A DNA stretch of 64,000 nt. Source: Chondrosia reniformis (lineage: Eukaryota > Porifera > Demospongiae > Chondrillida > Chondrillidae). The notes under the pieces are model-generated. The model was not told the DNA's origin, made no database searches, and was given only the letters and a program-made list of their open reading frames with translations. The DNA is taken from positions 806,001 to 870,000 of the forward strand of contig OX359201.1 in assembly GCA_947172415.1 (NCBI GenBank), written 5' to 3'. The position numbers and the translations under genes are program-made. Numbering within the stretch: position 1 is the first letter of the stretch; every line of letters starts with the position of its first letter. Shown here piece after piece: positions 1,441 through 62,718 of the stretch.

Positions 1441-1757
1441 CTATATGACTTTATAGACTAAGTATTCATCAATCTTTTTAGCCACTTTGTTCAAGTTGTT
1501 TTTTCTAAGTGCTTCCAAGAGGTTCTCCCAAGAAACATCTTTGTCTTTGTCAATCCATTCTCTCAACAACTTAGTACACTTCACACTGACATCACCATTT
1601 CCTTGTTCTATGTTTCTCGCTTCTGTGGACATTCCCAAAAAGGTAGCTATCTCAAGCCATTTATATGCCATTTGTGGAACAAAATTAGCCAGGGCCTCAG
1701 GAGTTATCTTTGAGGTATAGATATTTGGATGTGGGGAACCATTCACGTCTGACATGG
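1441..1757 (-). other. Death domain exon of gene A
   Basis: This single terminal exon carries the whole Death domain of gene A. It opens after a TTTAG acceptor at phase 1 and ends in TAG. The order of hydrophobic residues fits the family: a Trp-containing helix (YKWLEIATFLG), a Cys/Leu helix (KCTKLLREWID), the SW motif (VSWENLLEAL) and a final helix ending KKIDEYL. Gene B has almost the same exon at 6217-6527, with few amino-acid changes, so the duplication is recent. Confidence 0.85.
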
Positions 1758-4700
1758 CTAAATATAAATAGAAAATATGATCATTAAGCATCCATCAAAA
1801 ACACATACGTATGTATATGTGTGTAAATGTGTATGTGTGTACACATATGTATAAATATACCTGCCAAAGCAGCTGGTCTTTGAGGCTGATTAACATTCTT
1901 TGGGTCACTGGCCCCATCGCTATCACCTGTAAGAAGGAGGTTAGTATAAAAATCAAGAGTTTGTAATAAACCATTCGATTACGTGCAGACTTTTAAATTG
2001 TACTGGTTTTGTGTAAAAACCTACCACTCATACATATGTAATAGGGAGGGAGATATCTAGATAACTATATATACTGTATATCTCATTGCTGGGACAACTG
2101 TGCCAAAATATATCCATTACTAAGTCAGCCGAGATATAACAGCATTTAAGATTTCTTATTTATACATCATAAAACAGTATATATAGGTATATCAATTTTA
2201 TAATTACAATATATATGTATCAATTTTAAAGTGTGTATACATGTACATACATACATATTGTTTCAGAGATTAAATTAGAAAAAAGGTATCACTCACTGTG
2301 CCTGAATTCTCTCACACTCCCTGGTACTGTAGAGGATGGAGGAGAAAAAGGTAACAAGATTAACTACCATACAGTATAAATTACGTAAATATAGGATACA
2401 AGTATAATAGCTACATGTGACTCATGAAAACAATGTAGATAAGCCAAACTGTATATATTCTCATCCAATACCTCTACATGCAGTCACAATCTATATAAGT
2501 CATAGGAAGGACTATGTAGGAAAATTAAACTGTTACACATTTCCATAAGCTCATAATTCATATTAGTCAAGTGTTAAATGTTATTTTCGAATATTCATGA
2601 GCAGGCTCACTTCTCTCATAATCTTTCTTATAATTACGTCTTCTCTTTTTCAAAATAACTACTATTACTACAAGAGCAACTAGTAGTAGCAGTACCACTG
2701 CTAAAGCAGAAGATCCAATGAAAAGATCAAAGTAGAGAGAAGTCTCATCATGTGAGACAGTAGGATGCATGGAGACCACTCTAATAGGATCTCCAAGTGG
2801 CTGATAATCATTGATGGCATGATTGAAGACTTGACATTGATAGTTTCCAGTATTGTTGGTCAATACGGTACAAGTTCTGTAAGCCGTCACAGTTGACCTC
2901 TCCCTCACATCCCAGGGACAGGAGGCATTGTAAAACCTACAGCTGCAACACCTCTCCAGTTCAACTGGGTCATCCAAGCACTGTGGGGCTCTTGTGTAAT
3001 CTACCTGACAGACCCTCATTTCCTGACTATAAGGGAGACCCTCCGTTGCACAAGTGAAGTTAGCAAAACCAGTGGAATTCAGTTCTACCTCATCAGAGGG
3101 CTGGGATTGGAGGGGGTTGTAGAATTCAATCTCATCTGGGTGATTGGCTACATAAAAATGACCAAACCTGTATACTGTATTCACAGTTAGAGATGCATAA
3201 TATACCCTACAGCTAGAGATCATGCACGGCATGCATGTACTGTAGGGTGACTTAAAAAAACATTCATCAGTCAATATATATATATATATATGCATTCATA
3301 TTCATGATTCATGCATGTAGTGACAGATATACTAACAAAAATACATATATATTATCAAAAATTTCATATATTGTATTTTAACTTTCCTGTTGTAATTATA
3401 AATTACACATGTTCTATATATGGATGTGGACACTTAGCTGCAATTAAATATATACATATATATACAATTCAAATTATTATATGAATACTGCTTGTACTGT
3501 ATATTTATCAACTACATGATGATGTCATAGATCAAAGGTAAATCATTTACCATCCAGTGGTTAGCTATAGGACACAGGAAAGGCCCCTATGGTCATACAA
3601 TAAACAAGTTACACCATATAGAATTTGGAATTGTGTACATGCATGGAGCTATAGAAGACATGTATAGCTCTGTATATCTATTCATATAACATTGATTTCA
3701 TCACTAATTTTTAATGTAACAGTAAATTTTATGCACATTTACTTGGAAAAACTATGAATTTCTCTCCACATATAGTATCAATTTCGTTTGTGGCCGTGCA
3801 GCTGAGAAAAAAATCATTTATTTCAAGCAGCTGTCTGGAAAATCCAAATGTTACACACTGTAAAATATTAAATAAACATCAATATTTAGGAGTAATTTAT
3901 ATAAAAGAGTATAAAATTACGATCAATAGAAAAAATCCACTCAAATGTATAACATAGGTATATGTATATATATAAGTAATAATCCTCATAATACTATATA
4001 TTAAATACGCATGTTTAATTTCCTTCTGCACAGCTTATACCCAACTGAAACTAGGAAAATTACATGTGCAGCCATTTTGGTGAATTTTTGATAAAGACCA
4101 AAAATATGTGTGAGACATTTTTGTGGTTTGAGCCAACCACAAAAATATTTAAAAAATATATTTATGCATTAATATATACCATTCTACATACGTATATATA
4201 AACGTAAGTACACATACATTTGTATACGTATATAATATTAATATACTCACATATGAAGTTTTTGTATACATGCATACGTAGCTTACCCAACTATTATAGC
4301 TTGAGAAATTGGTCTTACAGATGTAATCATCAAGGCCAGAAAAGTGCCACAGCACATTTCTTACAGGTGGATATCCCGTGAAGTTGAAACAAATGAAGAA
4401 ACGAGGATTTTCTTTAAACAATATCTTAACTGTTGGTAGGTCATATTCACAATCTACATCAGAGGAGTTTTTAGGTTCCGTGAAGTTTAGTGGTTCTACA
4501 AAAGAATATAAAAGGATGCACTCATATCTGTCTTTACATCACCCTCACACCTAGTTACAGATAAAAAAACATAATGTTAGCCAGCTCTGGTAATAATAAT
4601 CATTTGATTAATTAAAGCCATTTTTAATGTCTTCTATAAAATAATAGACCTAAACCTAATAAGACCTTTGGATGAGGATACAAGAGGTTTCTCCTAAGGC

Positions 4701-5799
4701 TTTTACTTTTCTTCACCAATGGGCCATGCAGTTAGCTGTTTCTGGGAATTTCATCTCTCATCAGTGACCCTGCATGGGATATTTTGTCTTCTTAATTCTT
4801 AACCTTTTGTGAGCTCTTCAAAAACTTCAGAGGCATCCTCATGACACACCCTGTTAAACTAATGGAACTGGAACAACCACCTAATAACCTAGAGATGGCT
4901 CATCTTTATAGTGTTTTGAGCATCTAGAGATGCAGTTTGACCTTTTGAAATTGGATGTCTCGATTCTGCATGTGCATGGGGTCTTCTTGGCAATTGAATA
5001 AGATTTATTTACCAAATAAAACTTACATATATGGTAACTATCATATATATGCATTAAATTTGTATAAAGATACTCCGCAGAAGTATAACAATGGATAATT
5101 AAATGTTATAAAAATGTGTACTATGTAAATTTTTACAAATTCTACTAAACTCTTACTATAACTATCTGCTGTAACTTTGTAGATGTAATAGCTGGTCAAT
5201 GCTGTTTGGTCTTGACAGACAATGCATGATCCATTGTCTGCAGTTTTAATCTCAGAGATGACAACCTCAGAGGTGTTCTCAGTGTGATGGCTTGTCACTC
5301 TCGTGAGTATCCAGTGGCACTCTACTCCAGTTACTCCATGAAACACTATTTTATATCCCTCCACCGCATAGGCTTGGGTAATATATTCAGCTGGGTCTTC
5401 ATTACAAGTGGGAGGATCTGTGTATTGAAAATGCACCAGTATCAATTTTTCTCGTACTTTTAAGTCAAAATTAATAATATATACAATTCATTTAATATAA
5501 GACGTCTTTGAGTTAATTAGATGTAACCGATATATCACGTGCGTTACCACTTTTTGTGGGTCTCCTTTTTGTGCCTAACTCTCACGGCCTTTACCGATAT
5601 ATCATTTAATTAAAAGCATGTAAATGTAAGCTACATTTTGAATTTTTGTCCGATGCTCAGCTGGTAGCGTGCAGTAATTATAATACTTACCATCCGCGTG
5701 GTACACTTTAGAGGTTATATGGAAATCCTGTTCCTTCTGGTTAAGGGCGGTAGGCAGCGCCAAAACTAGTATCACAAGACTCAGACGACAGACTGACAT
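1441..5799 (-). CDS. Gene A: Ig-like transmembrane receptor with cytoplasmic Death domain
   Basis: Exons (5' to 3' on minus): 5799-5691, 5417-5157, 4495-4287, 3857-3743, 3147-2611, 2326-2297, 1926-1861, 1757-1441. They sum to 1644 nt (547 aa) with GT-AG introns and matching phases. Exon 1 encodes a signal peptide (MSVCRLSLVILVLALPTALN). Exon 2 is an atypical Ig-like module (CHW, then ADNGSCIVC). Exons 3-4 form a second Ig module (CFNFTGYPPV...W, then SCTATNEIDTIC). Exon 5 holds a Cys-rich third Ig module ending in TGNYQCQVF, a TM helix near residues 372-396 and a basic stop-transfer KKRRR. Two short linker exons follow. The last exon is a six-helix Death domain (KWLEIATFLG, then VSWENLLEALRKNNL). 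It is probably a cell-surface receptor that recruits death-fold partners. The ligand is unknown. Tandem twin of gene B. Confidence 0.85.
4640..4785 (-). repeat. Hammerhead-like short repeat (copy in intron 2 of gene A)
   Basis: On the minus strand the unit starts with a degenerate hammerhead-like core: CTGATGA at 4772-4766, followed by 'GAAAC'. It ends with the family tail that reads 'cttgtatcctcatccaaagg' on this strand. The cleavage triplet is not kept here, so this copy is probably inactive. See the better copies at 52276-52430 and 60593-60730. Confidence 0.6.
4860..4975 (-). repeat. Fragment of the palindrome-type repeat
   Basis: The plus-strand text 'ttgagcatctagagatgcag' matches the arm of the large palindrome (30349-31080) and the copy at 57790-57955. 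It preserves the local dyad 'gcatctagagatgc'. It lies directly beside the hammerhead-like repeat in the same intron of gene A. Confidence 0.5.
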
Positions 5800-6216: not shown

Positions 6217-6527
6217 TTAAAGACTAAGTAAGTATTCATCAATCTTTTTAGCCACTTTGTTCAAGTTGTATTTTTTTAGTGCTTCCAAGAGGTTCTTCCA
6301 AGAAACATTTTCGTCTTTGTCAATCCATTCTCCCAACAACTTAGTACACTTCACACTGACATCACCAGTTCCTTGTTCTATGTTTCTCGCTTCTGTGGAC
6401 ATTCCCAAAAAGGTAGCTATCTCAAGCCATTTATATGCCATTTGTGGAACAAAATTAGCCAGGGCCTCAGGAGTTACCTTTGAGGTATAGATATTTGGAT
6501 GTGGGGAACCATTCACGTCTGACATGG
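6217..6527 (-). other. Death domain exon of gene B
   Basis: This exon is nearly identical to the Death domain exon of gene A (YKWLEIATFLG, VSWKNLLEALKKYNL). It is fully open although a TGA in exon 5 lies upstream, which argues for a recent mutation or for continued use through some other transcript. Confidence 0.8.
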
Positions 6528-8534
6528 CTAAATATAAATAGAAAATATGATCATTAAGCATCCATTAAATACACATACGTATGTATATGTGTGTAAATGT
6601 GTATGTGTGTATACATATGTATATTATATGTGTGTATACATATGTATAAATATACCTGCCAAAGCAGCTGGTCTTTGAGGCTGATTAACATTCTTTGGAC
6701 CACTGGCCCCATCGCTATCACCTGTAAGAAGGAGGTTTGTATAAAAATCAGCAGTTTGTAATAAACCATTAGATTACCTCCCAATCATCCAAAACATGTA
6801 GACTTTTAAATTGTACTAATTTTGTGTAAAAAACTACCACTCATACATATGTAATAGGGAGGGAGATATCTAGATAACTATATATACTGTATATCTCATT
6901 GCTGGGGCAACTGTGCCAAGATATATCCATTACTAAGTCAGCCGAGATATAACAGCATTTAAGATTTCTTATTTATACATCATAATACAGTATATATATG
7001 TATCAATTTTATAATTACAATATATATGTATCAATTTTAAAGTGTGTATACATGTACATACATACATATTTGTTTCAGAGATTAAATTAGAAAAAAGGTA
7101 TCACTCACTGTGCCTGAATTCTCTCACACTCCCTGGTACTGTAGAGGATGGAGGAGAAAAAGGTAACAAGATTAACTACTATACAGTATAAATTATATAT
7201 ATATAGGATACAAGTAATAGCTACATGTGACTCATGAAAACAATGTAGATAAACCTAACTGTATACATTGTCATCCAATACCTCTACATGCAGCCACAAT
7301 CTATATAAAGTCATAGGAAGGACTGTATATGAATATTGTATTTACATGTATAAACTGTTACACATTTCCATAAGCTCATAATTCATATTAGTCAAGTGTT
7401 AAATGTTATTTTCGAATATTCATGAGCAGGCTCACTTCTCTCATAATCTTTCTTATAATTACGTCTCTTCTTATTCACAATAATTACTATTACTACAAGA
7501 GCAACTAGTAGTAGCAGTAGCACTGCTAAAACAGAAGATCCAATGAAAAGATCAAAGTAGAGAGAAGTCGTATCATGTGAGACAGTAGGATGCATGGAGA
7601 CCACTCTAATAGGATCTCCGAGTGGCTGATAATCATTGATGGCATGATTGAAGACTTGACACTGATAGTTTCCTGTATTGTTGGTCAATACGGTTCAAGT
7701 TCTGTAAGCCGTCACAGTTGACCTCTCCCTCACATCCCAGGGACAGGAGGCATTGTAAAACCTACAGTCGCAACACCTCTCCAGTTCAACTGGGTCATCC
7801 AAACACAGCGGGGCTCTTGTGTAATCTACCTCACAGACCCTCATTTCCTGGTTATAAGGGAGACCATCCGTTGCACAAGTGAAGCTAGCAAAGCCAGTGG
7901 AGTTCAGTTCTACCTCACCAAAGGGCTGGGATTGGAGGGGGTTGTAGAATTCAATTTCACCTGGGTGATTGGCTACAGTGACATATATACAGAAAATTTA
8001 CAATTTTTTAAATTGGTTCCCAGAAACAAATAATTCACTTGTGATGTTATCATAATTATTGCCTTAATTAAACACAAAGGAGCTATTTACAGTAAGCATA
8101 CTTTTACATCCAAAGTTCAAAAGTAGTCATCAAAATTTTGCATTTATAGCTTTTTTTTCTTTTTCTATCGTAAGTACACAAAGGCTATATACAAGATGGA
8201 CACTTCTATGTCAAGTGTGTACATAACGGATATACTAGTCACTTACGAGGGAAATAGACCTGTCTTTCTCCACATATGGAATCAATTCCATTTGTGGCTT
8301 TGCAGCCAATGACAACAGAACCAGAGCCTTGAAGCAGTTGTCGAGAATATCCAATATTCATGGACTATATGTGATAAATGATTGAGACAGTCCATAAGAC
8401 AGTCGGTAAAGATAACATAAATATATATATATAGTTATGTATATTAGAGAAGTATAGCTATTAGTTGTTCTGTACTTAATGTTTAAGGATAAGTTGATAT
8501 TCTTACACATATGAACTTGTTGCCAGCTCTTGTT

Positions 8535-8690
8535 AACGTATAGTGTACATAAAGATGAAAGAAGGGAAAAGAAGGAAGAAAAGACTCCTGTATCTTCATC
8601 CAAAGCTCTCTTCAGGTTTAGTTCCCCTATAGGCTCTTTTACAGAATAGGCATATAGCATGTAGGAAAATGGTATCTTAGATTTTTCATA
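8535..8690 (+). repeat. Tail half of the hammerhead-like repeat (intron 3 of gene B)
   Basis: Contains the family tail ('cctgtatcttcatccaaagc', then 'ggtttagttcccctataggc') and the AT-rich end 'aggaaaatggtatcttagat'. The ribozyme-like head is missing, so this is a truncated copy. Confidence 0.65.
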
Positions 8691-9169
8691 CGTATAAGGG
8701 AAGTAGTATTAAGGTATTCTGACACATATGTACTTGTTTGTATCAGCTAATATAATTGGTAATATAGTGTATAAATTATAGATGTAAGGATAGTACGCAC
8801 CATTCTACATCACTCATACAGTTATACTCTTTGTATGCACACATTATAGCTTACCCAACTGTTGTAACTTGTGGAATAGTTTTTACACATGTAGTCAGCA
8901 AAGTAGATATCAGAAAAGGATAATGTCACATTCATTAAAGGTGGATATCCAGTAAAGTTGAAATAAGTGGTAAAATGGGCGCTCCCATTGAACTGTATCT
9001 CATTTGAAGGTAGTTCATATTCACAAGCAGTCTTGGAAGGTGTGAAAAAGCCTGTGAAGTTCAATGGTCCTGCAAGAGAACATGAAAAGATACTCAAGCC
9101 TGATTACACTAGACGAGTAATCTAAAACACATATTTTTCCTATTACATATACGTATAGACTATACATCC

Positions 9170-9312
9170 ATTCTACAGTGTAAGGCCTATAGGGAACTAA
9201 ACCCATAACTTTGGATGAGGATACAAGAGCTAGTCTTCTCTTTATTCTACTGCTCCACTGGCCCAACAGCTGTTTCTGGAATAACCACCCTTCATCAGTG
9301 ACCCTGGAAGTC
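9170..9312 (-). repeat. Hammerhead-like short repeat (intron 2 of gene B)
   Basis: The minus strand has CTGATGA at 9298-9292 and GAAAC at 9276-9272. The cleavage triplet is GTT where better copies have GTC. The tail to about 9170 matches the family. It is the reverse-orientation counterpart of the copies at 52276 and 60593. Confidence 0.6.
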
Positions 9313-10250
9313 GTACTGAAAGTTCTTCTTTGATTGAATCCTTGTACACTTACATCTAGTTATGTACATGCTTTATATGTATACATTAAGTGCAGCTAAT
9401 TAAGCAGATATTGCGTATAATTCATATTTCTTTCTAATAATCTAAATCTAAATAATCAGTTTGTATGTTTCACTTAAGGACTTCTCTGTCAAGGCAGTGG
9501 AAATGAACCTCCAACTTACTAACTGTGCTAAACATAGATACCCTACTGATCAAAGTTAATGGTCATGAGTACATTGTTCGCAGTATTTTTGAACTTAATG
9601 TAATTTCTGTTGGAAACTCTTACTATAACTATCTACTGTAACTTTGTAGATGTAATAGCTGGTCATTGCTGTTTGGTCTTTACAGACAATGCATGATCCA
9701 TTGTCTGCAGTTTTAATCTCAGAGATGATAACCACAGAGGTGTTCTCAGTGTGATGGCTTGTCACTCCCTTGAGTATCCAGTGGCATTGGACTCCAGTTA
9801 CTCCATGAAACACTATTTTATATCCCTCCACCGCATAGGCTTGGGTAATGTATTCAGGGTCTTCCTCACAATTGGGTCCTTACCATTGAAAAGCAACAGC
9901 AGAGTATTATTACATATTTAATGATATGGTATCATGGGTAATGCAGCAGTGAATTCAAAGACAAACACTCATGTAGATATTATGACTTGAAAATGTATCT
10001 ATATTATGTAGAAATGGTGTCAGGTAGAGTCGTATGTAGCCAGCTTATAATTGAAGCTGAAACACATAAAACACGTTATTATCTATATATGCAAAGTATG
10101 AGCGCATATATCTATATAGTATGAATGGAATGACCTACCATCCGCGTGGTACACTTTAGAGGTTATATGGAAGTCCTGTTCCTTCTGGCCAAGGGCGGCA
10201 GACAGCGCCAAAACTAGTATCACGAGACTACCGTTCGCTAAATGTAACAT

Positions 10251-14071: not shown

Positions 14072-14143
14072 GCTATAGCCACCTGCTGGTATAGCACAAT
14101 CAGATATCTTATGATGGTACATATAAAAATGCAATCATTTTAG

Positions 14144-17912: not shown

Positions 17913-17975
17913 CCACTGTATATAGCTGCAGCTCAGTGAAAGTATACCTTCTATTATACATATACGTATACTCAC

Positions 17976-35800: not shown

Positions 35801-36039
35801 GTTCTCAGTTTTCTAAGTGAAGGATCCTGGTGGAGAAGAGTGAGTAAACAGTCATTCGCTTCCTCGCTAGTAGGCTTTGACTGGATCGCTTGTGAATCAG
35901 CAGTTCTAATAGCATTCTTTCTCTGGAGTGTTGACACCCATTTCCTTGAGTCGTTAAATTTAAGAAACGGTCGGCTAAAATGTGGCTTTGTCAAAAATTC
36001 AAGTATCTTTTCTCTTTCTTCTTCTTCTACTTCTTCCAT
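32830..36039 (-). CDS. Gene F: CARD, uncharacterised middle region and coiled coil (paralog of E)
   Basis: Exons: 36039-35715, 35650-34773, 34705-34667, 34175-34082, 33859-33801, 33274-33083, 32990-32838, all matching gene E in phase and length apart from a 9-nt length difference in exons 1 and 2. It starts MEEVEEEEREKILEFLTKPH. Exon 1 is CARD-like (NDSRKWVSTLQ ... CLLTLLHQDPSLRKLRTLSE). Exon 2 is the unrecognised region also present in E. The last exons are coiled coil (QDLLEKVTSLESQLKDSEKA). Exon 5 has a poorer donor (gtacta) than in E. Past 32838 only a piece of coiled-coil sequence (32761-32822) is left before gene G's upstream region, so the 3' end is truncated. It may still be expressed but probably lacks its normal C-terminus. 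Confidence 0.68.
34228..34272. repeat. Intronic hairpin, gene F copy
   Basis: 'tgtcatagaaata' and 'tatttctatgaca' flank a loop of about 13 bases. Counterpart of 23294-23335 in gene E. Confidence 0.6.
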
Positions 36040-46500: not shown

Positions 46501-46848
46501 GCCATGCTTGTCACACCCCTGTATCACTTAGCCCCCCCCCTCCCCTCTTTCAAATTTCAATATCCAAAATCAATAGACTACATACCTACATGTTCAGTAA
46601 CAATTCTATTCCTATAATACGGATATGGTATGCTACTATGTGTCTGTAAGTTAGTATCGCGTCCACCTAGTCCTTTGAACAGAACTCGACCTACCGTTGT
46701 TCGTGTAAAGCGGGGTCTTCAAATGAAAATATTGATTTCCCGAATCTAGCCTTTGTACCGGTATCGTGGGTACTGAAATCATTCCGCCTTGCTGCCCGAC
46801 GCAATGATATAACGAATATTGAAAAATGACTACCATCACTACAAACAT
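37590..46848 (-). CDS. Gene C: Ig-like transmembrane receptor with CARD and Death domain
   Basis: Exons: 46848-46695, 46235-45990, 45733-45525, 44094-43974, 43888-43229, 42410-42348, 42056-41991, 41778-41704, 41219-41154, 40588-40541, 40038-39727, 39183-39103, 38861-38799, 38104-37787, 37708-37590. They sum to 2601 nt (866 aa), phases agree, and all tail introns are phase 1. Signal-peptide exon (weak hydrophobic core), three Ig-like modules, a Pro/Thr/Ser stalk (about residues 372-420), TM helix near 431-455, then five short linker exons. A CARD-like exon follows (residues 570-673; ILEFLRSEKFRDQIKFTDLL ... LNDPSERKLKILHCIIKC), two more linkers, a Death domain exon (722-827; ELGISQGITVAIKQQ ... 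MWEDDLFMAVEKAGL) and a short last exon. Predicted surface receptor with two different death-fold modules in its tail. Confidence 0.8.
37787..38104 (-). other. Death domain exon of gene C
   Basis: The exon has the Death-domain pattern of conserved hydrophobic positions (LDQLGKELGISQ, KLIMVLEFWLKQ, MWEDDLFMAVEKAGLPEV) and is flanked by phase-1 introns, as in genes J and M. It is more divergent than the Death domains of A and B. Confidence 0.7.
38170..38310 (-). repeat. tRNA-derived SINE-like element, worn copy
   Basis: On the minus strand 'caactgtcctgcatgggttt' replaces the B-box area and is followed by a tail like that of the copies at 16835 and 42130. Lies in an intron of gene C. Confidence 0.45.
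39727..40038 (-). other. CARD-like exon of gene C
   Basis: This one exon encodes a complete CARD-like fold. It aligns with the N-terminal exons of genes E and F: the 'DEILEFLRSEKF' start, the 'DPS.RKL' turn, and the 'LADMIAEFL' end. Phase-1 introns on both sides make it a shufflable unit. Confidence 0.65.
40200..40330 (+). repeat. Palindrome-type repeat, single-arm copy
   Basis: 'catcagtcactgaagaagac' is followed by a C-run, 'agggtct' and then 'aaagataagtttggcacagt'. This matches the right arm of the 30349-31080 palindrome and its outer flank. The GAAA of the hammerhead-like core is changed to TAAA. Confidence 0.6.
42130..42250 (-). repeat. tRNA-derived SINE-like element, best copy
   Basis: On the minus strand the A-box-like 'gtggcagagcactgg' (near 42240-42225) precedes the B-box-like 'gggttagattccc', then a SINE tail 'gtgtttttccctcttcatga'. 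It resembles a tRNA gene head with lost folding, so it is a SINE and not a working tRNA. Intron of gene C. Confidence 0.65.
44130..45262 (+). mobile_element. LINE remnant in intron 3 of gene C, flanked by inverted sequence
   Basis: The plus-strand frame 44161-44658 reads 'EQVQLRAGRIFLGVNRRHPK' and 'MLPIQWEARRRCIMFWMKVL', typical of the region after the reverse transcriptase in some non-LTR retrotransposons. A second frame, 44788-45054, continues it (ERWKKKIPFCGDVKLLTGER) after frameshifts. No RT or endonuclease remains. The bases at 44130-44210 are the approximate reverse complement of 45180-45262 ('atgtctcctgag...gatg'), and a third copy is at 12393-12465. Orientation is opposite to gene C. 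Confidence 0.7.
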
Positions 46849-47015: not shown

Positions 47016-49619
47016 CTAATTCTGAGTTACATTTTCCACAGGTTCTACTTTAACATCTGGAAGAAAATTTGAATCCTGATTTTCTGTAAGATATATACAG
47101 AAAAAAGGAAAATGTAGAGGCCATATGTAGATATATGTAGAGAATATATGGTGCTAACCATGGAATTGGGCATTTTCAGTTCCATAACCATTTCTTATAG
47201 AGTCAGCTGTATAGAACATACATACATATGATGCAAGATAAAACATATTGAAAGGACTTCAAGAAAGTGAATCCTCTATATCCTTACATTGCAGTAAGGG
47301 TTCTGTTTCCGAAGGAATACAATGTTTTGTGTAGTTTTTCCAATCATGCTTAATTTCTAAAAGCAGCAAAAAATATTAAATTTGGGATTAGCATTGTAGC
47401 AGAATTATATCTGATCAAAAAGATAGTCTAATTACTTTAGGGTACCAACAGAAATACATGAACTTGAGAGAATTGATGAATAAGCATTTAACATACTCAC
47501 CTTTCCAGTTGGTTTGATTATTAATCTTCTTTTTCAGTAAAACAACAAAGGCAATTGTAAACACTATCACAGTAACCATAAACACTATTAGGCCAAACAC
47601 AACACTAAATATATATATAACATATTCTGTTTGTATCCCATTAGATTGTTGTACATGTTCCACCACTAGTATTGGTTCCCCGAGAAGTTGGTACTCATTT
47701 ATCACAGGATCATATACTTCACATTGATAGTATCCTCTACTGTCAGTGGTGACTGTACAATAACTACTGAGAGCTGTGCTGGATCCCTCCTCTACTGTCC
47801 ATGGACAAGAAGGATCATAGTATGAACAGCTGCAACAGGTGTAGTTCTTCTCTGGTTGTCTGTTTAGACATTCTTCAGCTTTTGAGTAATCCACCCTACA
47901 CACTCTCATTGTCTCCTCGTAAGATAACTTGTTTGTAGAACAGTTGAATGAGGCAGAACCAGTGGAGTTCATCTCCACCTCACCAGAAGGTTGAGATTGG
48001 AGGGGAAGGTAGAATTGTAAGCTGCTTAGGTAATCAACTACAAGACAAATATGTGCATATATACAGATATTTAATACATTCCATTACACACATAACTATA
48101 ATAATTCAGCTCACATGTATAGTAAAGATGTCTCATTCCACATATAGTATCAATACCATTAGTAGCAGTACATGTGACTACAGTATCTAAACTGAAGTCC
48201 TCCACTAGAGACTCTGAGAGACCCAATGTAACAGACTACAAAATGGTGATAAATATATATTGAGTGAAATATATACTCTATATGGAGTGCATGCTCTGTA
48301 ATATAAATCATTGCTTATATATGACACCTTTTTTGTGTGATGCATAAATCATCACTCTCACCTGGTTGTCCTCGGAATAGGTGATACAGTCATAGTCATT
48401 AAAGTGTCCAAGATCCCATGTTATACTCTGTACTGGAGGATATCCAGTAAAGTGACAACTGAAGGTGAAGTTGGCAGATCCATTGAATATGATTGGTTGA
48501 CCATACAGAGTATAACAAGGTGATAGGTCTGATGGAGGAGACTCTGTCTTCTCAGCGAAGTTGAGGGGAACTGCGAACATAAATTCACATATTAAAGATT
48601 TTTTGGTGTACATATTATCCATATAAAATGGTATATATATATATATATATTATGTACCTGAATTGTCTACAATGACTTTGAAGATGTAGTAAAGATCCTT
48701 CTGGTCATCCAGTTGACAAGTGACACAAGTAGAATTATAGTTTGGTTGAAAGTCATACACTTCCAGAGCTGAGCTATTAACACGATATCCACCATGATCT
48801 GGAGTGACTGTCCACTTGCAGGGCTCTCCGTTGCCAAGGAACACTCCAGTGAAGCCAGTTACTGCGTAAGCAACTGTTACATAGTGTTTTGGAAAGCTGG
48901 GACACAGGGGAATTCCATCTGAAGTGTTGTGTATTAGGGAAGTCATAAAAGTATGTATATATTGCTTCTCAGGATATGGGTACACAACAGAATACAAATA
49001 AGCAGTTATTATAGATGACATTTATATACGTATTTACGCATAAAAAGTATATATACGTAGGTCCTAATCATCAGTCAAGTGTTATATAGGCAGTTTCTAC
49101 AAACTTTTTATAGGCCTAGCTATATATATAGGTGGATCTAGGAATTTGTAATTCGAAGGCAGCTAAATTTTGCAGGAGTATGACAAAGAAAGGGTATATG
49201 ATGGTTTGATTAGTATTAGGTGGTTCAGTTAGTATTTTATCAAAGTTTGAAATATTGCTACTAATTCAAATCAGGGGGCTTTAGCACCCATAGCACTCCC
49301 TTCCCTGAATCTGCCATATTTAGATAGAGTTTCCAAAATTATAGGACATATATATGTAGGATTAAAACATTATAGCTACGTATATAGCTAATACAGAGAA
49401 TACACTTTAATGACAACTTTATTCCTGAACCTGCTTCACTGATCAAAATATTAGTCATGATGGCATACCTTTAGATTGATAGGGTGCTGATAGAGGATAA
49501 AATTCTTGACAACCTCTTGTAGCAAAGGTTAATTCTTTTGAACAGAGTAAAGCAAAGAAGCTAAAAATGATATTAAAATTAAAACTTAAAAACTGGTTCA
49601 GACTCAGGTTAGGAGCCAT
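47016..49619 (-). CDS. Gene H: Ig-like transmembrane receptor with short tail, no Death domain
   Basis: Exons: 49619-49469, 48918-48658, 48570-48362, 48235-48115, 48037-47501, 47356-47288, 47206-47159, 47083-47016. They sum to 1464 nt (487 aa) with agreeing phases. Signal peptide MAPNLSLNQFLSFNFNIIF and onward, Ig1-like module (residues 52-138; PCKWTVTP, NSTCVTCQLDD), Ig2 (FSCHFTGYPPVQSITWDLG, VVTCTATNGIDTIC), Cys-rich Ig3, TM near 385-415, then a tail of about 70 residues ending NQDSNFLPDVKVEPVENVTQ and TAG. Ig2 and Ig3 are almost identical to those of genes C and I, but Ig1, TM and tail differ. The 3' end is only about 170 bases from the start of gene C. Confidence 0.8.
48640..48650. repeat. 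(TA)n microsatellite
   Basis: A pure TA run next to the donor of exon 2 of gene H, centred at about 48632-48650. Short and common in this window. Confidence 0.5.
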
Positions 49620-53677: not shown

Positions 53678-54363
53678 TCAATGACTTTTAGCAACGTTTT
53701 TTTCGTTTAAGTATTGAACTATTTTTGAACTAATTCCTTTAAGTTCAAGGTTGTTGAGTACATCTATCAAGGTCTGCCAAGTAACAGATTCTTGTTGGAC
53801 CCAATTCTCAAGGAGAATAGTCATTTTCAAAACAAACGATCCCTGTTCATTCCTTAATCCACGGACGGTGTCAGTCATTTTTAATCCATGGCCAATAAGG
53901 TCCCAGTTAGGGGCTAAGGAAGTGATAAACATCACTAGTTCATTCATACCAAGAGGTACCTTCTTGTCAATGTCAATTGGTACTGTTAGATCAACAGATG
54001 GCTTAACGTCTAGGGGAAGAGAATCATAATTATGGGATGGACATATGTGTCGACATAAATATTGATAATCAAACCACAACTGTAATATGACCTCACATTG
54101 TTTCTGCAAAAACAAACGAATCTTTGAAGAAACTGTTGTAAGGTTTAGTTCATCCAAACGTGCAAGCAGTATTTGCCAAGTATGTGATTCTGATTGTGCA
54201 ATCCACGTCTCAAATAAAATGGTTGTCTTGACAAGTGAAGATACTCCACTCTTCTCCAGTTCATTGACCTTCTCAGTAAGTTTCAATTTATTTCCAATTT
54301 GTTCCCAAGAGGAAGAAAGGGACGAGAAAAACTGCACCAATTGATCCATGGAGACATTTTGAC
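53678..54363 (-). other. Tandem Death domain exons of gene J
   Basis: Two exons, each one Death domain. Both have the Trp-containing first helices and the TW motif in helix 5. They are only moderately alike and are closer in style to the Death domains of gene M (VPLGMNELVMF versus VPLGMDKLADF) than to those of A and B. That supports exon sharing between receptors and gene M. Confidence 0.78.
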
Positions 54364-57322
54364 CTTTAATATTATTGGTAGAAGAACATATTTTACTTAC
54401 TTAAGTAAATGTTTGTCATGAGAATGATTGGCTGCATTAGTACACGTGGCATAATTTGTGGTTTGGTTGTCACATTAAACCCACCTGTAATCTTTGGTAC
54501 AGCATCTGGTTCAGCATCAATACCAGCTACATAATATGGATGAACATATACAGTACAAATTAGTATACATTATCTATGTATACATTCGCATATTATAATA
54601 CACTTTAATTCCTGGCACTACTAAAGTGCATGTGGATTCATACAAGGTACCTTTAAATGGTAAATTTTCAGTTTGGCTTCCATCAGGGTCTGTAACAGGG
54701 ACAGATTAGGCAGATATGAGAAAAAACAAAGACTGAAATCACTATAATATATTGCTTGCTTTAATGCATGCTAATGCATATATGAAGCAATACCAACTTA
54801 AAATGGAGGCAACATGCATAGGCTATATAACAAATAGCTTAGATCACCATCCTGCCTCCATTGTAGTATGACTAGTAGGTATCAGTAGGTGGTCTAGGTT
54901 ACATCAGACTCTTATAGTCAACACAAAACTATAGTATTGTAGTCAATCTCAAATAGCAACAGCTTGTAGAATTAAAAAACAGTCTGTCCCAAGATTTTCC
55001 CCTCTCTTGGTCTGAGGACTCCCCACTCCTTCTTCACCTTTAAGAAAGAATTGCCACAAGATTAATACAATTAGTCAAAGCCTCTCTACTGTTCATTCCA
55101 CTTGCAGGCAATTAATTGAGGACATACGTATGCACGCTAATGCATGCATGCATGTACTGTATGTATTATATAAAAACAAAAAATAATAAAGTCATACTCT
55201 AAAGAGCTATTAGTGTCCAAATTAACACACAATATAAATGGATGATTACTGTATGCCAGGAATTATAATACCTCAACCTTACCATTGTCAGAGATAGCAT
55301 CGCTTTTATCTGTAAAATTCAAATATATATATACAAGAGTTATATTATAAAGATATTCCTGGTGGATGAGAGATTAAACATTATATATATATATGTATGT
55401 CAAACTGTACACTGACTCACTTAGTTCAATTTTCTTTGACTTCTTATGTAAAAATGGGATGACAATAATACACACTAGCACTATCACTGCTAGTAGTAGA
55501 AGAGGTCCAACCACTCCGAAACTGATCGACACTGCTAGGAGTTGAGAACCAGTAGGTATCACAGGCTCTATCACTGTAATCAGAGCACCAAATGGCTGAT
55601 AACCACCAATTACGGGATAATATCCTTCCCACTGATAGTTTCCAGTGAGGTTGGTGGTCACACGACAAGCTGACACTTCAATAGTAGATTCATCCTCACT
55701 CAACCAGGGACAAGACAGGTTCCCACAGGAGCAGCAAGAGTATTCTCCTTCTGGAGGGACGTTTAAACAAATCCTTGTGTCACTCACTTTACAAACTCTC
55801 AAGATCGATGACTCTGGAACATCTTCAGTAGCACCTCTGAATGTGGCAACATGGGAAGTGTTCATTTGAATATTCCCAGATGACTGAGATTGCAGAGCCA
55901 AGTATCGCTTTAGCTTCGAGTTCACTAAAGAAAATGGATTTGTTGAGTAATATGTATTCTAAATAATGTAAACCAAAAATAATAGTATTGACTATTCATT
56001 AACCAATGATAATAATTATAATAGAATATTGGTACATAGATCTGATGAATATATGTATGCATTGTATGTATGTAATCCTGTATGTCATTCCTCCATACTT
56101 ACGTGGGTAAAATATATGTCTCATTCCACATATACTCTCTATAGTGTTATTGGCTGTACATGTTACTACTGTATCTGCACTATACTTGCCAGTTGTCAAC
56201 AGAGTGGAAAATCCAAGAGTTACTGACTATATATGTAAGAAATTAAACCAATGCATAAATTAACCTCATATATGTATCTGTAAATGCATGCCTTTGTCAC
56301 CTGGTAACTAATACTCTCACCTGGTTATCCTCGGAATAGGTGATACAGTCATAGTCATTAAAGTATCCAAGATCCCATGTTATACTCTGTACAGGAGGAT
56401 ATCCAGTAAAGTGACAACTGAAGGTGAAGTTGGCAGATCCATTGAATATGATTAGTTGACCATACAGAGTGTAACAACGTGTCACGATTGATGGAGGAAA
56501 CTCTGTCTTCTCAGTGAAGTTGAGGGGAACTGTATCTTCTACTATGAGCAGGAATATATAATAAGTAGTAAAGCTTGCTTCACAGAGAACACATGTTTGA
56601 TTCTGGCTAGTCTTCATATCTGGAATTTCCAGCAAGTGGACAGTTGAGTTCTTGGGCTGCACATCAGGGTCTGTGGTCCACTTGCACACCACCCCTCTAG
56701 GAGAATGGAACATAGCGTTGTATCCAGTGACTCCATAAGCCAGTGTGACATCATCAGCCTCGCCATTACAGGATGGTACAACATCTAAGCAATTAATATG
56801 GATGGATATCAAATGCCTGTGCAAAATTATACATAATTCATTACATTGCAATAAATATATTTATACGTATATACTGATCGACTTTTACTATCTAAATTAT
56901 AAAGTTATACGATTTCGATTCGATGTCAGATCTATATCTATATACTTATATAACCCTTATATAATTATTTACGGATTATATATATACACGACCGTATTAT
57001 ATACGTAAAGCGAAACACTTGAAAGACGTTTTATACAAGTGCGCCCAGGGCGTAATTTACCATCTCGGGATCATCGTCTCTTATAGCACTCTATAGATCG
57101 GGGTATAGATATACATATATAAGCATCTCACACTTTTATAAATTGACTATAATGTATGCTCGTAATATATTATAAGCTACACAGTTTACCGTACAGACCT
57201 GTAGACACAGGCGGTCTCTCCGGATAGAAATTCTGGTTCCTGCTCTGTCCCGCAGAGAGCGCTTCGGACGTTAACATCCAAATAGCCAATAAGACACTCA
57301 ACATATCACTCGTGATCAACAT
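53678..57322 (-). CDS. Gene J: Ig-like transmembrane receptor with two tandem Death domains
   Basis: Exons: 57322-57190, 56784-56321, 56226-56103, 55924-55421, 55309-55283, 54689-54651, 54526-54485, 54363-54097, 54009-53678. They sum to 1932 nt (643 aa) with agreeing phases. The signal peptide runs from ATG 57322 or 57304 (MLSVLLAIWMLTSEALSAG). Ig1 and the first half of Ig2 are fused in one exon, where A, B, C, H and I have an intron. Cys-rich Ig3, TM near residues 368-397, three short linker exons. Death domain 1 is SSSWEQIGNKLKLTEKV ... TWQILLARLDELNL. Death domain 2 is APNWDLIGHGLKMTDTV ... TWQTLIDVLNNLEL. Stop TGA at 53680-53678. The donor between the two Death exons (gtgagg at phase 1) keeps the frame; reading straight through is also open. 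Confidence 0.8.
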
Positions 57323-57960: not shown

Positions 57961-60900
57961 ACTTTTTTGAATTGTCTGACCACAAAAGATTTACCAATTG
58001 AAACTGCTTTTCTATATATATAGATGCTCAATGAGTTAAAAGAAGCCTGAAACTGAAAGATAACTATTAGTGTCTCATACTCATGCAGTTACCTACCTCC
58101 TAAGAGTGGATCTGTTTCTGTGGAAGTTTTGGACTTTGTCCTCTTAATTCCAGTTATCCTTGATACAGCTAGAAAACCAACATAACACAACACAGATCAT
58201 AAAGGAGAGACAGGTACATGTATGTACGAGCTCAATTTATCTCTGGAGGATTAATGATGTTGATATAATTAGCTATCAATAACAAGAATTTCAGTAAATG
58301 GATGTTTCAACTAGTAAAACTCTAACAGCAATAATGAGGAGGAAAGAGTTAAATTGATATTTAAATGAATTTCATACTGCTGCAGATTAATGAATGTTAG
58401 TAGAACTATGTACAATAATATAATATTGGATATTATATTTCTCTCTGTGTACATTATACTCCACAATGGAATGACTTAGAAGATTTATGTAAATTCAAAT
58501 TGGTAAAATGTTTGAATCTTGGGATTCAGCAGATAGCATGCACGTGGTCATCACATGGTCATCACATGGTCATCACATGGTTATTATTGATAGCTGATTA
58601 AATTAAGGAGTTTAGAGATTACCAGTTAGCTTTCTAAACAGACCAATTGGCCAAATAAAATTCCCTATATATTGATATTTCCAGCTATATGTAATTTCAA
58701 AAGTGTTTTTAGGAATATAAACCATTTTACTAAGATACTGGTATTAATGAATTCTTGACTATACTTAAGGCTAACCTTGGTCAGTAACATCTTCCACTAT
58801 GTAGTTCCTTCTTGTTCGCAATCTCTTGACCTTGATCATGAGATAGACTGTACCACTTAGAAGTATTAGCAATGGAACACTCAAAATAGCATATCCAGAA
58901 ATAAAGAAAGGAAGACTTGCTAGAAATTTATCAGTTTTTATATTTCCATTCTTCTGTTCCACCACTAGTAATGGTTCCCCGAGAGGTTGATACTCATTTA
59001 TCACAGGATCATACACTTCACATTGATAGTATCCTCTACTGTCAGTGGTGACTGTACAATAACTACTGAGAGCTGTGCTGGATCCCTCCTCTACTGTCCA
59101 TGGACAAGAAGGATCATAGTATGAACAGCTGCAACAGGTGTAGTTCTTCTCTGGCTGTCTGTTTAGACACTCTTCAGCTTTTGAGTAATCCACCCTACAC
59201 ACTCTCAATGTCTCCTCGTTAGATAACTTGTTTGTAGAACAGTTGAATGAGGCAGAACCAGTGGAGTTCATCTCCACCTCACCAGAAGGTTGAGATTGGA
59301 GGGGAAGGTAGAACTGTAAGCTGCTTAGGTAACCAACTGCAAGACAAATATGTACGTATATACAGATATTTAATACATTCCATTGCACACACATAGCTAT
59401 AATAATTCAGCTCACATGTATAGTAAAGATGTCTCATTCCACATATAGTATCAATACCATTAGTAGCAGTACATGTGACTACAGTATCTAAACTGAAGTC
59501 CTCCACTAGAGACTCTGACAGACCCAATGTGACAGACTACAAATACATGAAAACATCAATTACTGCATAGTACATATAAACAGTATATATGTACAGTTCT
59601 GAATATAAACACACTTGTAACCATACAAGTAATGAACATAGTAGCCATGCTTTATAGAGTGAAATCTGGGAATTAAATAGGTTATATTGCTACTCAAATG
59701 AATGTGTGTTGTTATAGCTATAGCTATTCTCACACTAAAGGGTAACATTCAGGCTATTGAATGATCTAAAACAATATAATGCTCAAGGGTTAAATATCCT
59801 CAGAAGCCATCTTCCACTATACATATACAATCTCTGCACTGATTCTTAATCGGTAACTCGTGACTACAAACTTTCCACTAGAATGATGTCACCATGCATC
59901 ATGCAGCTATAATTTCTTTACTGATTACCGATTGCAATGTCCAATCTGGACAACTGACCCAAAAGTACTGTATATATACTACAATCTGATTCTTATAGAC
60001 TATACTCCAATCTGATTATTATAGACTATACTACAATCTGATTCTTATAGACTATACTACAATCACTAATCATGTGTAAATTATGACTACTACACCAGAT
60101 GGCACTATTGCATCAATCCATAGATCTGTCCACCCACACATACTATAAAGGTGCTCCTTGTGATAAGATTTATCTACTAATTTGAAATGGTGAATTTATA
60201 TCTTGATAACATTTGTCACAAAGTTATTATGTATTATCAGAAGAATTTGTAAGTATATATGTAAACTATATATGATAATATGTACATTAGTCTAGCATAA
60301 TTAGGCAATGTAGAGGATATGGGTTGGTTTTTATATGTACATTGAATTAATAAGGCAGATGCAAACTGCTATTTAGCTTACCATGAACAATTATTACAGT
60401 AGTATTAGTAGTAGTATATTATAATATATTTTAATACATACCGTACAAACATGATTGATGTTTTAACAGATTGTATAATAACTAGAAAATCAGTGACAAA
60501 TCCATCATAATACATATTAAAAGTATTGAACATGTAAAACATTAATTGTGTTTACCCTACTGTAAGTGTTAAAGGACTAAGAATGACAAAGACTCCTAGG
60601 GTCACTGATGAAGGATGGAATTCCCAGAAACAGCTGTCTGGCCCAGTGGAGAAGAAGGAAAGGCAAGAAAGGAAAAAGATAAGTGTAACTGTATCATTAT
60701 CTCAAGTTCTACAGGCTTGACCTAGGTCATACAGTGCATCTAGGAATCTTATATGCATTAGTCTGTTCATATGTTTCCTTTGCATGCCTCACTTGCCTCA
60801 CTTACATATGTATCTATCACCTATAAGTAGTAAAATTGTATTATATATTATTTATTTGCAAAATGTCACATGTAAATGCCTTGCTTACAACTCACCTGGT

Positions 60901-62718
60901 TGTCCTCAGAATAGGTGATACAGTCATAGTCATTAAAGTGTCCAAGATCCCATGTTACACTCTGTACTGGAGGATATCCAGTAAAGTGACAACTGAAGGT
61001 GAAGTTGGCAGATCCATTGAATATGATTGGTTGACCATACAGAGTATAACAAGGTGACAGATCTGTTGGAGGAGACTCTGTCTTCTCAGTGAAGTTGAGG
61101 GGAACTGTTTAGACAACAAAATCAATATATAACCCAATTATGAACCAGTTTCAAACAGATATACACATATATGAAGTGAAACTCTAATTGAATGACACAG
61201 TAATTCAGTAGAGCATATACCATGGTGCATTAAACCTATATAAAACAGGATACAGTTGACAAAACCATTCACGATCCTTATAAGGTATATAAAATGGCTA
61301 CTTTATGAATGGAAATTGAGAGTAAAACTTCCTGATTCATACTATAGGTATCTGTATATACGTATATTAAATGTATCTTCCAGTCGCACATATACACATA
61401 ATTCATACATGTAACTATACGTATGTATATGTTGACATACCTACATCTTTCACAATGATGTAAAAGAGATAAAATGATTCTTCATAATCAACTAGTTGAC
61501 ATATAATGCATGTAGAGTCGTCTGAGAACTGAAAGTTGTAAAATGTTAATGTAGTGTCTGTTGTATTGAAATATCCTATATCTGGTTGAACTGTCCAGTT
61601 GCAGCGCATTCCTCTGCTATGAAATACTCCATTATAACCCACCACTGCATGAGCAACTGTTACATTGTCCAATGGTGTATTGATGCAGGTGGGAGCTGTG
61701 AGTGGTACATATATAAAGACACATGACAGTAAATATTCCTACATATATAGTAACTATATTAACAATAGTTTACACTTATATATATGTACCTATATGTAGT
61801 AACAAAGTATTTCAAGCTGCAAGATGACTCAACAATGGACATTCATCTGTCGTTATATCAGCAAGTATATTATAATTATTTGAGGAAGGAATAGCCCATT
61901 TATGTGGTAATATATGCACACATAGCTATATAAAATCTAGGATACATTCTGAAGGGGCTTCTATTGTTTGTGTATAGATATGATTTTTACAAGGGAAGGC
62001 AATTGAATATGTCATTGTACTGTACGTATATAGCTGTGTATATGACCACAAGTTTGAAATCATACTCATAGAGATACCGACATGATTGGTACATCAAGGT
62101 ATTACAAGTCCTATTTTATAGCTATGTCTATCCATATCTGTGAAGTCTTCTGCAAAGGTTGAGATGTCGACAAAGAGACAGAATAACAAGATACATATTG
62201 ATACACATTGGTATAGTTCGATTTCTGATAAATTAATGGGCACACTCGTACATTGGATTCACAAAATATCAAAAAGACAAAGATTCCTGGGGTCACTAAT
62301 GAAGGGTGGAATTCCCAGAAATAACGTTGTCTCGCCCAGTAGAGCAGATAAGGAAAGAAAAGACTCCTGTATCTTAAATCCAAAGCTGCAGGTTTAGTCC
62401 TTTTTTAGGAATAAAAAAATGGTGTAGCTATTAATTTCTCATTGGTATTTTGGTATTGGCGTTTAGCTAATATAATATATAAACTAGTTTTTAATGTCAG
62501 TCCTGGTATTCTCAAGTCTAGTTTATAGCCTTCTAATTATAATGGACACGTGTAGCTATAGCCGTACCTTGCTTTAGCGCTGTATGATACGGTTGGCGGG
62601 AAGCCCAGAAGTCTTGTCGTCGTGAAGTGTCTAAGTTGAAGCCTTCGGGGATTAGAAGTAATAAAAGCATACAGGAATACGTTAAAAACTGGTTATTTGA
62701 CTTAAAAATATCTACCAT
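57904..62718 (-). CDS. Gene I: Ig-like transmembrane receptor, short tail
   Basis: Exons: 62718-62568, 61695-61441, 61104-60896, 59536-59416, 59336-58776, 58168-58097 and, tentatively, 57953-57904. They sum to 1419 nt (472 aa) with agreeing phases. Signal-peptide exon contains SCMLLLLLIPEGFNLD. Ig1 is divergent (MRCNWTVQP ... DDSTCIICQLVD). Ig2 and Ig3 are almost identical to C and H (GHFNDYDCITYSEDNQ; NYTCCSCSYYDPSCPWTVEE). TM near residues 381-412, then RRNYIVEDVTDQ and a basic exon (SRITGIKRTKSKTSTETDPL). No Death domain was found before gene J starts. The last exon is weak and overlaps a repeat, so the true tail may differ. Intron 3 is long (59537-60895) and holds repeats. Confidence 0.72.
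59976..60062. repeat. 26-bp tandem repeat, about three copies
   Basis: Unit 'caatctgattcttataga' plus 'ctatacta', repeated three times with a few changes, inside intron 3 of gene I. Confidence 0.75.
60593..60730 (+). repeat. Hammerhead-like short repeat, best stem I
   Basis: CTGATGA at 60605-60611, GAAA at 60627-60630, GTC at 60636-60638. Stem I is six pairs, GGGTCA (60599-60604) with TGGCCC (60639-60644), all paired if the U-G is counted. Stem III is AC/GU with loop agct. Tail partly kept ('ctgtatcattatctcaag...'). In intron 3 of gene I. Confidence 0.7.
62280..62410 (+). repeat. Hammerhead-like short repeat, worn copy
   Basis: CTAATGA replaces CTGATGA and GAAAT replaces GAAAC. The tail 'actcctgtatcttaaatcca' and 'aggtttagt' is shortened. 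In intron 1 of gene I. Confidence 0.6.

Follow-up and report, generated by a model that had tools for sequence, protein, structure and literature searches.

The 64,000-nucleotide stretch of chromosome 13 of the sponge Chondrosia reniformis analysed here (C13:806001–870000, referred to below as the window) raises the question of whether its tandem genes encode cell-surface receptors in which three immunoglobulin (Ig)-like modules are followed by one transmembrane (TM) helix and a death-fold tail, as a preliminary description of the DNA had proposed. The locus holds an array of genes with a common exon plan, Death domains encoded downstream of TM exons and ectodomain modules that have diverged as a mosaic. 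These genes are probably clustered single-pass recognition receptors that signal by death-fold assembly.

The 117,379,552-base genome (15 contigs) served as search space. The exon encoding the third Ig-like module and the TM helix (Ig3+TM) of the gene at 58–62 kb matches the genome at 11 places (E ≤ 0.001), every one of them within C13:801,049–893,403 on the minus strand, and a second Ig3+TM query at E ≤ 10 returned the same 11 together with C13:1,369,697 (E = 6.1 × 10−4) and a chance-level match on C8 (E = 4.8). The occurrence of 11 copies on one strand within one stretch of C13 is not due to chance. They mark 11 receptor units arranged head to tail at C13:0.80–0.90 Mb (A0, A, B, H, I, J, K, L, M, N and O), an array whose extent was read with flanks of 30 kb below and 40 kb above the window; six (A, B, H, I, J and K, all on the minus strand) lie inside the window. 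Four diverged units (P, Q, R and S) form a second cluster at C13:1.3695–1.407 Mb, ∼0.5 Mb from the main array, and with 11 array units and four diverged units the receptor family is larger than first described. The unit letters are those of this analysis; C, H, I and J of the preliminary description appear to correspond to H, I, K and J here, as matched by tail type.

Exons were located by tblastn and by reading open reading frames (ORFs), splice sites were chosen by eye with the aid of a simple matrix and the exons were then joined. All 11 array units share a signal exon followed by Ig1, Ig2a, Ig2b and Ig3+TM exons, with intron phases 1, 1, 0, 1 and 1; J and L have no intron between Ig1 and Ig2a, the phases of J therefore being 1, 0, 1 and 1. 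Eight of the models (A, H, I, J, L, M, N and O) have an uninterrupted reading frame that begins with ATG and closes at a natural stop, and encode 447 to 742 residues. The other three are B, which has an in-frame TGA, K, which ends before its last tail exon, and A0, in which the exon chain from the TM to the Death exon was not joined. Since the manual sites were chosen with knowledge of the phase, the sites were also scored mechanically, using matrices for which 42 ectodomain junctions were the sole training set. The top-scoring donor after the TM helix is in phase 1 in 12 of the 14 units scored (R was not located; the exceptions are A0 and S) and the top-scoring acceptor is in phase 1 in nine of 14 tail domains (the exceptions are A0, both domains of J, P and Q). 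With a chance of one third per site, a hand-worked binomial calculation gives ∼8 × 10−5 for the donors and 0.02 for the acceptors, values that overstate the independence of the units, which are related.

The tails of the 14 units other than S comprise one Death domain (A0, A, B and P), two Death domains (J and O), a CARD-like domain (L, N, Q and R) or a CARD-like and a Death-like domain (H); no death fold was found in the tails of I, K and M, the K model lacking its last exon. At the Pfam Death cut-off of 22.6 bits, A0 (51.7 bits) and J, A and B (Table 1) score above and the two domains of O (22.1 and 20.8 bits) just below; the cytoplasmic side of these domains is assumed from their position after the TM helix. 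The CARD-like tails of L and N are 46–47% identical to each other. Compared by hhalign with a reference set of 20 of the 25 Pfam-positive CARD exon matches of this genome, the tails of L, N, Q and R together give 50.2% and the same group with H 74.0%, with group controls at 0.1–0.2%, while H by itself gives 25.4%. These moderate, specific signals of profile similarity suggest, without proving, a CARD fold in the tails of L, N, Q, R and H. The two tail exons of H keep its frame in phase 1, starting 3.2 kb past the TM exon, and have relatives among the neighbouring CARD-like exons by tblastn; on account of this distance and these relatives, the H tail junction is the least certain of all. The short tails of I, K and M carry acidic dileucine motifs (ETEPLL, ETDPLL and ETDSLL, respectively), and such a motif (ESDPLL) also precedes the CARD-like exon of N.

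The identity of the ectodomain modules was examined against 20 of the 150 listed I-set exon matches in this genome. By hhalign, main-array Ig2 matches this reference set at 92.0%, compared with 0.1% for the CARD control and 0.4% for the Death control. Ig2 of K, once spliced, matches Pfam Ig_3 below the cut-off (E = 0.0036), and a profile search of the PDB with Ig2 returned two matches, both to Ig proteins (E = 0.17 and 0.64). Profile similarity supports Ig2 as an Ig domain. On direct reading, main-array Ig3 retains F-x-C and G-x-Y-x-C motifs, and in Ig3 of J both cysteines are lost together, which fits a paired disulfide. The Ig1 modules of both loci combined match the I-set reference at 35.7%, the two Ig1 sets matching each other at only 1.0%. 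An Ig fold may be proposed for Ig1 by way of the diverged units alone and for Ig3 from its motifs alone. No Pfam match was obtained for Ig3 of K, and when the PDB was searched with profiles of Ig1, Ig3 and the CARD-like set, all matches were taken to be unrelated. A full-length profile matched THO complex subunit 1 in the PDB over the Death region (E = 2.8 × 10−5) and a sodium-channel beta chain over Ig3+TM (E = 7.9 × 10−5), the latter perhaps through the TM helix, with the Fas Death domain (E = 0.13–0.21) ranking behind THO complex subunit 1.

The strongest argument against an accidental adjacency of receptor and death-fold exons is that the order of three Ig-like modules, TM helix and death fold is found in both loci. 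Read as ORFs without full splice models, P, Q and R of the second locus repeat the main-array order, ending in a Death (P) or CARD-like (Q and R) domain. The Death exon of P is under the Pfam cut-off (16.9 bits) and matches the receptor Death set at 97.9% by hhalign, and the tail domain of L and N matches the tails of Q and R at 95.9 and 96.8%, respectively. Against the I-set reference, Ig1 of P, Q, R and S gives 72.5%, Ig2 of P, Q and R 93.7% and Ig3 of P, Q, R and S 1.2%; of the single exons scanned with Pfam, Ig1 of S exceeds the Ig_5 cut-off, Ig2 of K, P and R has Ig matches below cut-off and Ig2 of Q has none. The two loci are far diverged, since the Ig3+TM exon of P finds only itself genome-wide at E ≤ 1. 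The diverged Ig sets likewise do not match main-array Ig1, Ig2 and Ig3 (hhalign 1.0, 0.2 and 2.0%), so that the tie between the loci rests on gene order, tail domains and one distant Ig3+TM match (S).

This recurrence supports the receptor family with Ig-like ectodomains and death-fold tails that was originally proposed. The six clustered genes that had been described, each with a signal peptide, three Ig-like modules and one TM helix, are recovered as six minus-strand units with a common exon plan, with the reservations that Ig1 and Ig3 are putative Ig folds and that B contains a stop codon. The statement that exon sums and phases support each model agrees with the common phase pattern and is weaker for B (the stop), K (the last exon missing from the model) and H (the putative tail linkage). 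The distribution of tails is as first tallied: one Death domain in A and B, two in J, CARD-like and Death-like domains in H, across a putative junction, and no death fold in I and K. The profile comparison that had been recommended as a check gives Death matches over the cut-off for A, B and J and no match to any Pfam Ig family for the three single Ig exons of A.

Several observations count against the interpretation of these genes as receptors of this type. There is an in-frame TGA in the Ig3 exon of B and a stop within the enlarged Ig2a exon of A0, which lies outside the window; receptor B is possibly a pseudogene or a null allele. The junctions between TM and tail exons in the models are putative for every unit and have a basis in sequence only, with five of the 14 tail domains and two of the 14 donors departing from phase 1 as listed above. 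The Death exons of A and P each hold an in-frame ATG near their start, so that a separate gene is possible, and no intermediate exon was identified in the 3.2 kb between the TM and CARD-like exons of H. Main-array Ig1 and Ig3 match the I-set reference at only 1.3% each, and AlphaFold2 gave mean predicted local distance difference test values of 42.9 for Ig3+TM (five rows) and 43.7 for Ig1+Ig2a of J (11 rows), with nothing usable beyond a helix at the TM segment. Pfam CARD finds no match in the CARD-like tails of L, N, H, Q and R; by hhalign, L and N alone reach just 26.8% against the CARD set, and singly Q reaches 4.9% and R 0.6%. Lastly, the ∼8000 candidates scored per database search included no homologue of the ectodomain that clearly comes from another species.

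These database searches comprised a full-length profile, with no match at 10−5 among the 7996 scored candidates sharing most words, and an Ig3+TM exon profile, which found nine proteins among 7995 scored, 98–100% identical to array units over the aligned part. Those corresponding to H, A, I and J are 100% identical (the window's own), those corresponding to N, A0, K and M are 98.2–99.5% identical (one, one, three and two differences, respectively) and the ninth is a fragment from a 952-base contig, whose 156 residues include 101 identical to I; it combines an Ig2b resembling that of H with an Ig3 resembling that of I, and its end looks, by eye, like a translated sequencing adapter. Eight of the nine list a 7,076,433-base contig, which is longer than C13 here, and the array thus appears in a second assembly. 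The nine sequences resemble ORFs of exons that were never spliced together, a possible reason for the failure of the spliced full-length query to find any of them. As a yardstick, the ROC-type ORF of the window returns 17 database proteins (at 93%, at 83% and fifteen at 30–54% identity); the database thus does hold relatives of sponge genes, and the absence of the ectodomain is weak evidence of lineage restriction.

The modules have not diverged together. Distances were calculated as Nei–Gojobori nonsynonymous (dN) and synonymous (dS) values and DNA tracts were compared by blastn, excluding the rows H–I (100% over 1633) and L–M (100% over 1642), in which the same DNA was counted twice. In the six pairs among H, I, K and M, Ig1 has dN 0.46–0.78 and dS of at least 1.38 (two infinite), close to synonymous saturation, whereas dS is 0.01–0.09 in Ig2 and 0.05–0.11 in Ig3. 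Between A and B the Ig2 pattern is reversed relative to these units (dS 0.10 in Ig1, 1.10 in Ig2, 0.12 in Ig3 and 0.07 in Death), and for J and L it is Ig2 alone that is close (dS 0.25, compared with 2.25 in Ig3 and infinity in Ig1). Two sharply bounded tracts are shared by H, I, K and M: the 209-base Ig2a exon (206 bases in pairs with H aligned at its start) with up to ∼30 flanking bases, at 94–99%, and Ig2b with its short intron and 380–383 bases of the Ig3+TM exon, ending before the TM segment, at 92–97%. These four units accordingly have a variable Ig1 tip, a shared Ig2/Ig3 scaffold and a variable TM segment and tail. The low dS in Ig2 and Ig3 argues against protein selection as the cause, and the simplest reading is that exon-scale gene conversion over homology islands homogenizes these modules. 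cDNA-mediated conversion was considered since the tracts stop near exon edges, but does not explain the homogenized short Ig2b–Ig3 intron. In the close pairs A–A0, A–B and A0–B, dN/dS is ∼0.5–1.0 in Ig1 and 0.1–0.3 in Ig3, with few changes, which suggests that the Ig1 tip may be freer to change than Ig3 in these units. Positive selection on Ig1 was also considered and is not claimed, given these ratios and the high or saturated dS elsewhere. The contrast between scaffold and tip makes the array a clear example of how concerted evolution can act on the modules of a receptor separately.

In such receptors the membrane-distal Ig1 would be the diversified ligand-facing module, Ig2 and Ig3 would be a common scaffold kept alike between neighbours by exon-scale gene conversion and the tail exons, in phase 1 in the models, would be exchangeable between units. 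Ligand binding at Ig1 could then cluster the chains via the scaffold and bring about Death or CARD-like assembly with a caspase or NF-kB output. Death and tandem Death tails might nucleate Death assemblies leading through a FADD-like adaptor to a DED-caspase, or to an NF-kB branch, CARD-like tails might recruit CARD partners, and the short acidic-dileucine tails of I, K and M could mark decoys or trafficking forms that tune the response. Every step beyond the tail domain itself is one that we infer. Candidate partners occur in the genome: a FADD-like pair, in which a Death match and a DED match on the same strand are separated by 1.5 kb (C3:926,881–928,739), a caspase-8-like set of two DED and caspase matches (C13:5.347–5.349 Mb) and CARD beside caspase matches at C3:7.302 Mb and C2:1.729 Mb. 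The splicing, topology, ligand and signalling, and an antimicrobial rather than another use, are likewise what we infer for these genes. A microbial role seems slightly likelier than allorecognition, because a transcript of another sponge, Dysidea avara (TR154561_c0_g1), listed in Table 5 of a 2018 study as having `Ig domains and a CARD domain', is up 1 h after exposure to microbe-associated molecular patterns (PMC6208332). If this reading is correct, an early-branching animal would have recognition at the cell surface coupled directly to death-fold assembly, with a variable recognition module wired straight to the machinery of cell death or inflammation.

It is possible, and put forward only tentatively, that the array is a self/non-self or microbe-recognition locus resembling a germline-encoded repertoire, in which a variable Ig tip, a converted scaffold and interchangeable death-fold tails stand in place of TIR domains or of immunoreceptor tyrosine-based activation or inhibitory motifs (ITAM/ITIM). 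Such a locus would be the cell-surface arm that sponge recognition has been missing, and a third way for animal Ig receptors to signal.

An allorecognition complex, the sponge counterpart of Hydractinia Alr and Botryllus fuhc, in which a polymorphic Ig1 compares self with non-self and death-fold tails kill at incompatible contacts, is unlikely. It would account for the diverse Ig1 above a homogenized scaffold; Alr genes are likewise clustered, single-pass and Ig-like, with low identity and pseudogene-like members (PMC11067881), and fuhc includes a three-Ig TM protein (PMC12065747). However, the Ig3+TM exon proteins of the second assembly differ by just one, one, two and three residues for A0, N, M and K, respectively, and the Ig1 polymorphism of this reading is hypothetical. 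A regular-expression scan of the 11 models (A0 and K with incomplete tails) found no ITAM and a single ITIM-like match, at the end of the Death exon of A, in contrast to the motifs that are reported on candidates at the Alr and fuhc loci.

The array might instead consist of two kinds of neighbouring gene, short-tailed Ig receptors and separate soluble Death or CARD adaptors that happen to follow them. The window does contain Death and CARD-like exons without Ig exons, the tail exons of H begin at a distance, the splice matrix found no good acceptor for the first Death exon of J and the early ATG codons in A and P would suit independent starts. This arrangement is nevertheless improbable, given that the Dysidea transcript carries Ig and CARD together (PMC6208332, on its tabulated description), that the receptor-then-death-fold order is kept on the same strand in seven of the 11 main-array units (eight with H) and three of the four diverged units, and that phase-1 linker exons conserved between A and B connect the tails to the TM helix.

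Guidance or adhesion receptors of the UNC5 dependence type, which would serve cell sorting or tissue remodelling and signal death when unliganded, share the UNC5 logic of an Ig ectodomain and a Death tail on one chain, and are very improbable given the lack of a ZU5 match in the tail domain exons scanned with Pfam and a rapid tandem expansion with tail exchange that would be unusual for guidance receptors.

The coordinates of the receptor exons and of one neighbouring gene are collected in Table 1.

Table 1. Receptor units and a neighbouring gene in the window (window positions; all on the minus strand).
Feature	Position	Strand	Basis
Receptor A, full span, 8 exons	5799-1444	-	
Receptor A terminal exon, Death domain	1444..1757	-	Pfam Death 38.9 bits, E = 9.4 × 10−10; top-scoring acceptor phase 1
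Receptor A linker exon 2, phase 1-1	1861..1926	-	Conserved with B, intact splice sites
Receptor A linker exon 1, phase 1-1	2297..2326	-	Conserved with B
Receptor A Ig3-like + TM exon	2611..3147	-	11-copy exon family; best 19-residue hydropathy 3.71; Ig fold from motifs alone
Receptor A Ig2b exon (second half of Ig2)	3743..3857	-	Spliced model
Receptor A Ig2a exon (first half of Ig2)	4287..4495	-	Ig2 profile versus own-genome I-set 92%
Receptor A Ig1-like exon	5157..5417	-	Spliced model
Receptor A start codon and signal-peptide exon	5691..5799	-	Signal peptide judged by eye from hydrophobicity
Receptor B, 8-exon plan of A, one Death domain, in-frame TGA in Ig3 exon	6220..10250	-	Pfam Death 35.6 bits
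Neighbouring gene that seems to lack an ectodomain: one CARD-like exon (labelled by eye and from its similarity to H) and four Death-type exons	26054..28622	-	Pfam, tblastn
Receptor H, full span including putative tail	46848-37593	-	
Receptor H putative terminal exon, Death-like	37593..38104	-	No Pfam match; hhalign 44% versus receptor Death set, 0.2/0.3% versus Ig/CARD controls; putative linkage
Receptor H putative tail exon, CARD-like	39727..40038	-	No Pfam CARD match; hhalign 25.4% versus CARD set, controls 0.1-0.2%; putative linkage
Receptor H ectodomain + TM	43229..46848	-	46848-46695 signal, 46247-45990 Ig1, 45733-45525 Ig2a, 44094-43974 Ig2b, 43888-43229 Ig3 + Ser/Thr/Pro stalk + TM
Receptor I, 478 residues, complete open model, short tail with ETEPLL	47016..49619	-	Spliced model
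Receptor J tail, two Death exons (54363-54097 and 54009-53681)	53681..54363	-	Pfam Death in two stretches (40.5 bits); neither exon has its best acceptor in phase 1
Receptor J ectodomain, TM and linkers	54485..57322	-	57322-57199 signal, 56784-56321 Ig1+Ig2a fused, 56226-56103 Ig2b, 55924-55421 Ig3+TM, 55309-55283 and 54526-54485 linkers
Receptor K	58097..62718	-	62718-62568 signal, 61695-61441 Ig1, 61104-60896 Ig2a, 59536-59416 Ig2b, 59336-58776 Ig3+TM, 58168-58097 tail exon ending ETDPLLG

The exons of the neighbouring gene resemble the J Death and H CARD-like exons by tblastn. Pfam Death matches three of its four Death-type exons, all below the cut-off (E = 2.5 × 10−4, 0.0025 and 0.079), and the fourth has none. 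The second Death domain of J is 47% identical to its exon at 26075–26347. The suggestion that linked CARD and Death proteins make up a whole signalling module fits this relatedness between receptor tails and neighbouring genes, which does not prove it. At 29959–30294 (−) the same peptide is encoded as in the receptor H signal exon (PVQRLDSGNQYFHLKTPLYTNNG), with no Ig exon after it by tblastn; this is perhaps the remnant of another receptor unit ahead of the gene with CARD-like and four Death-type exons. Three tandem copies of a CARD-like exon (by eye) followed by an ORF lie at 23899–25261, 31542–32476 and 34764–36051 (−); a Pfam scan of one of each gave no match for the CARD-like exon and none above chance for the ORF. 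Coiled-coil-like exons (by eye) follow two of the three copies, at 22048–22335 and 32987–33274. A large ORF at 13277–16522 (−) has weak Roc similarity (E = 2 × 10−4, below the cut-off) and 17 database relatives at 30–93% identity, and adjoins an ORF that weakly resembles CARD (E = 0.004, likewise below the cut-off). Between receptor genes, 18748–21517 (+) contains retroelement gag-pol-like ORFs with zinc-knuckle, protease and reverse-transcriptase motifs recognized by eye. Elsewhere on the chromosome, at C13:342,908–345,507 (−), two I-set exon matches are followed on one strand by matches to the caspase family, all of them interrupted by a stop in the matching frame; this is the order of a MALT1-type paracaspase.

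No description of a clustered Ig–Death/CARD receptor family was found in the open-licence literature (subscription papers and supplements lay outside the search). The array would offer a candidate locus, already mapped and open to testing, for immunity or allorecognition in sponges, for which the receptors are unsettled. TNFR-type death receptors such as Fas share one TM helix and a cytoplasmic Death domain with the array, in which the ectodomain is Ig-like in place of the TNFR cysteine-rich repeats. UNC5 likewise has both Ig domains and a Death domain in a single receptor. UNC5 carries thrombospondin repeats, ZU5 and UPA; it is not a tandem mosaic family, and ZU5 is absent from the array tail exons scanned. 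Hydractinia Alr resembles the array in being a cluster of single-pass Ig-like receptors and Botryllus fuhc-tm in having three Ig domains; candidate cnidarian and tunicate allorecognition receptors are reported in PMC12065747 with ITAM/ITIM motifs, and those of the Alr/fuhc kind have such motifs or short tails in place of Death or CARD. The sponge Ig receptors described so far are reported to carry TIR (PMC6208332), and D. avara is reported to have six Ig+TIR genes. These IgTIR receptors are alike in their Ig-type ectodomain, single TM helix and signalling domain of the innate-immunity type (PMC6208332 and PMC12909245) and unlike in their TIR tail, the Ig sequences having been compared by eye from ORFs only. 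TIR has two exon matches in the genome, on C10 and C2, and the array tails are not of the IgTIR type; an IgTIR-type receptor lies at C10:7,518,911, one of these two matches. The closest description is that of the Dysidea transcript, which places Ig and CARD on one demosponge transcript and is likened here by description only, being a single table row with no cluster, Death tail or gene structure in the portion of PMC6208332 available. Given that row the phrase `unrecognised receptor system' is too strong, although it agrees with the lack of any such cluster in the literature searched. Clustered Ig recognition receptors are a known kind, to which this locus adds a different intracellular half and, as a new observation, an ectodomain mosaic of Ig1 against Ig2 and Ig3.

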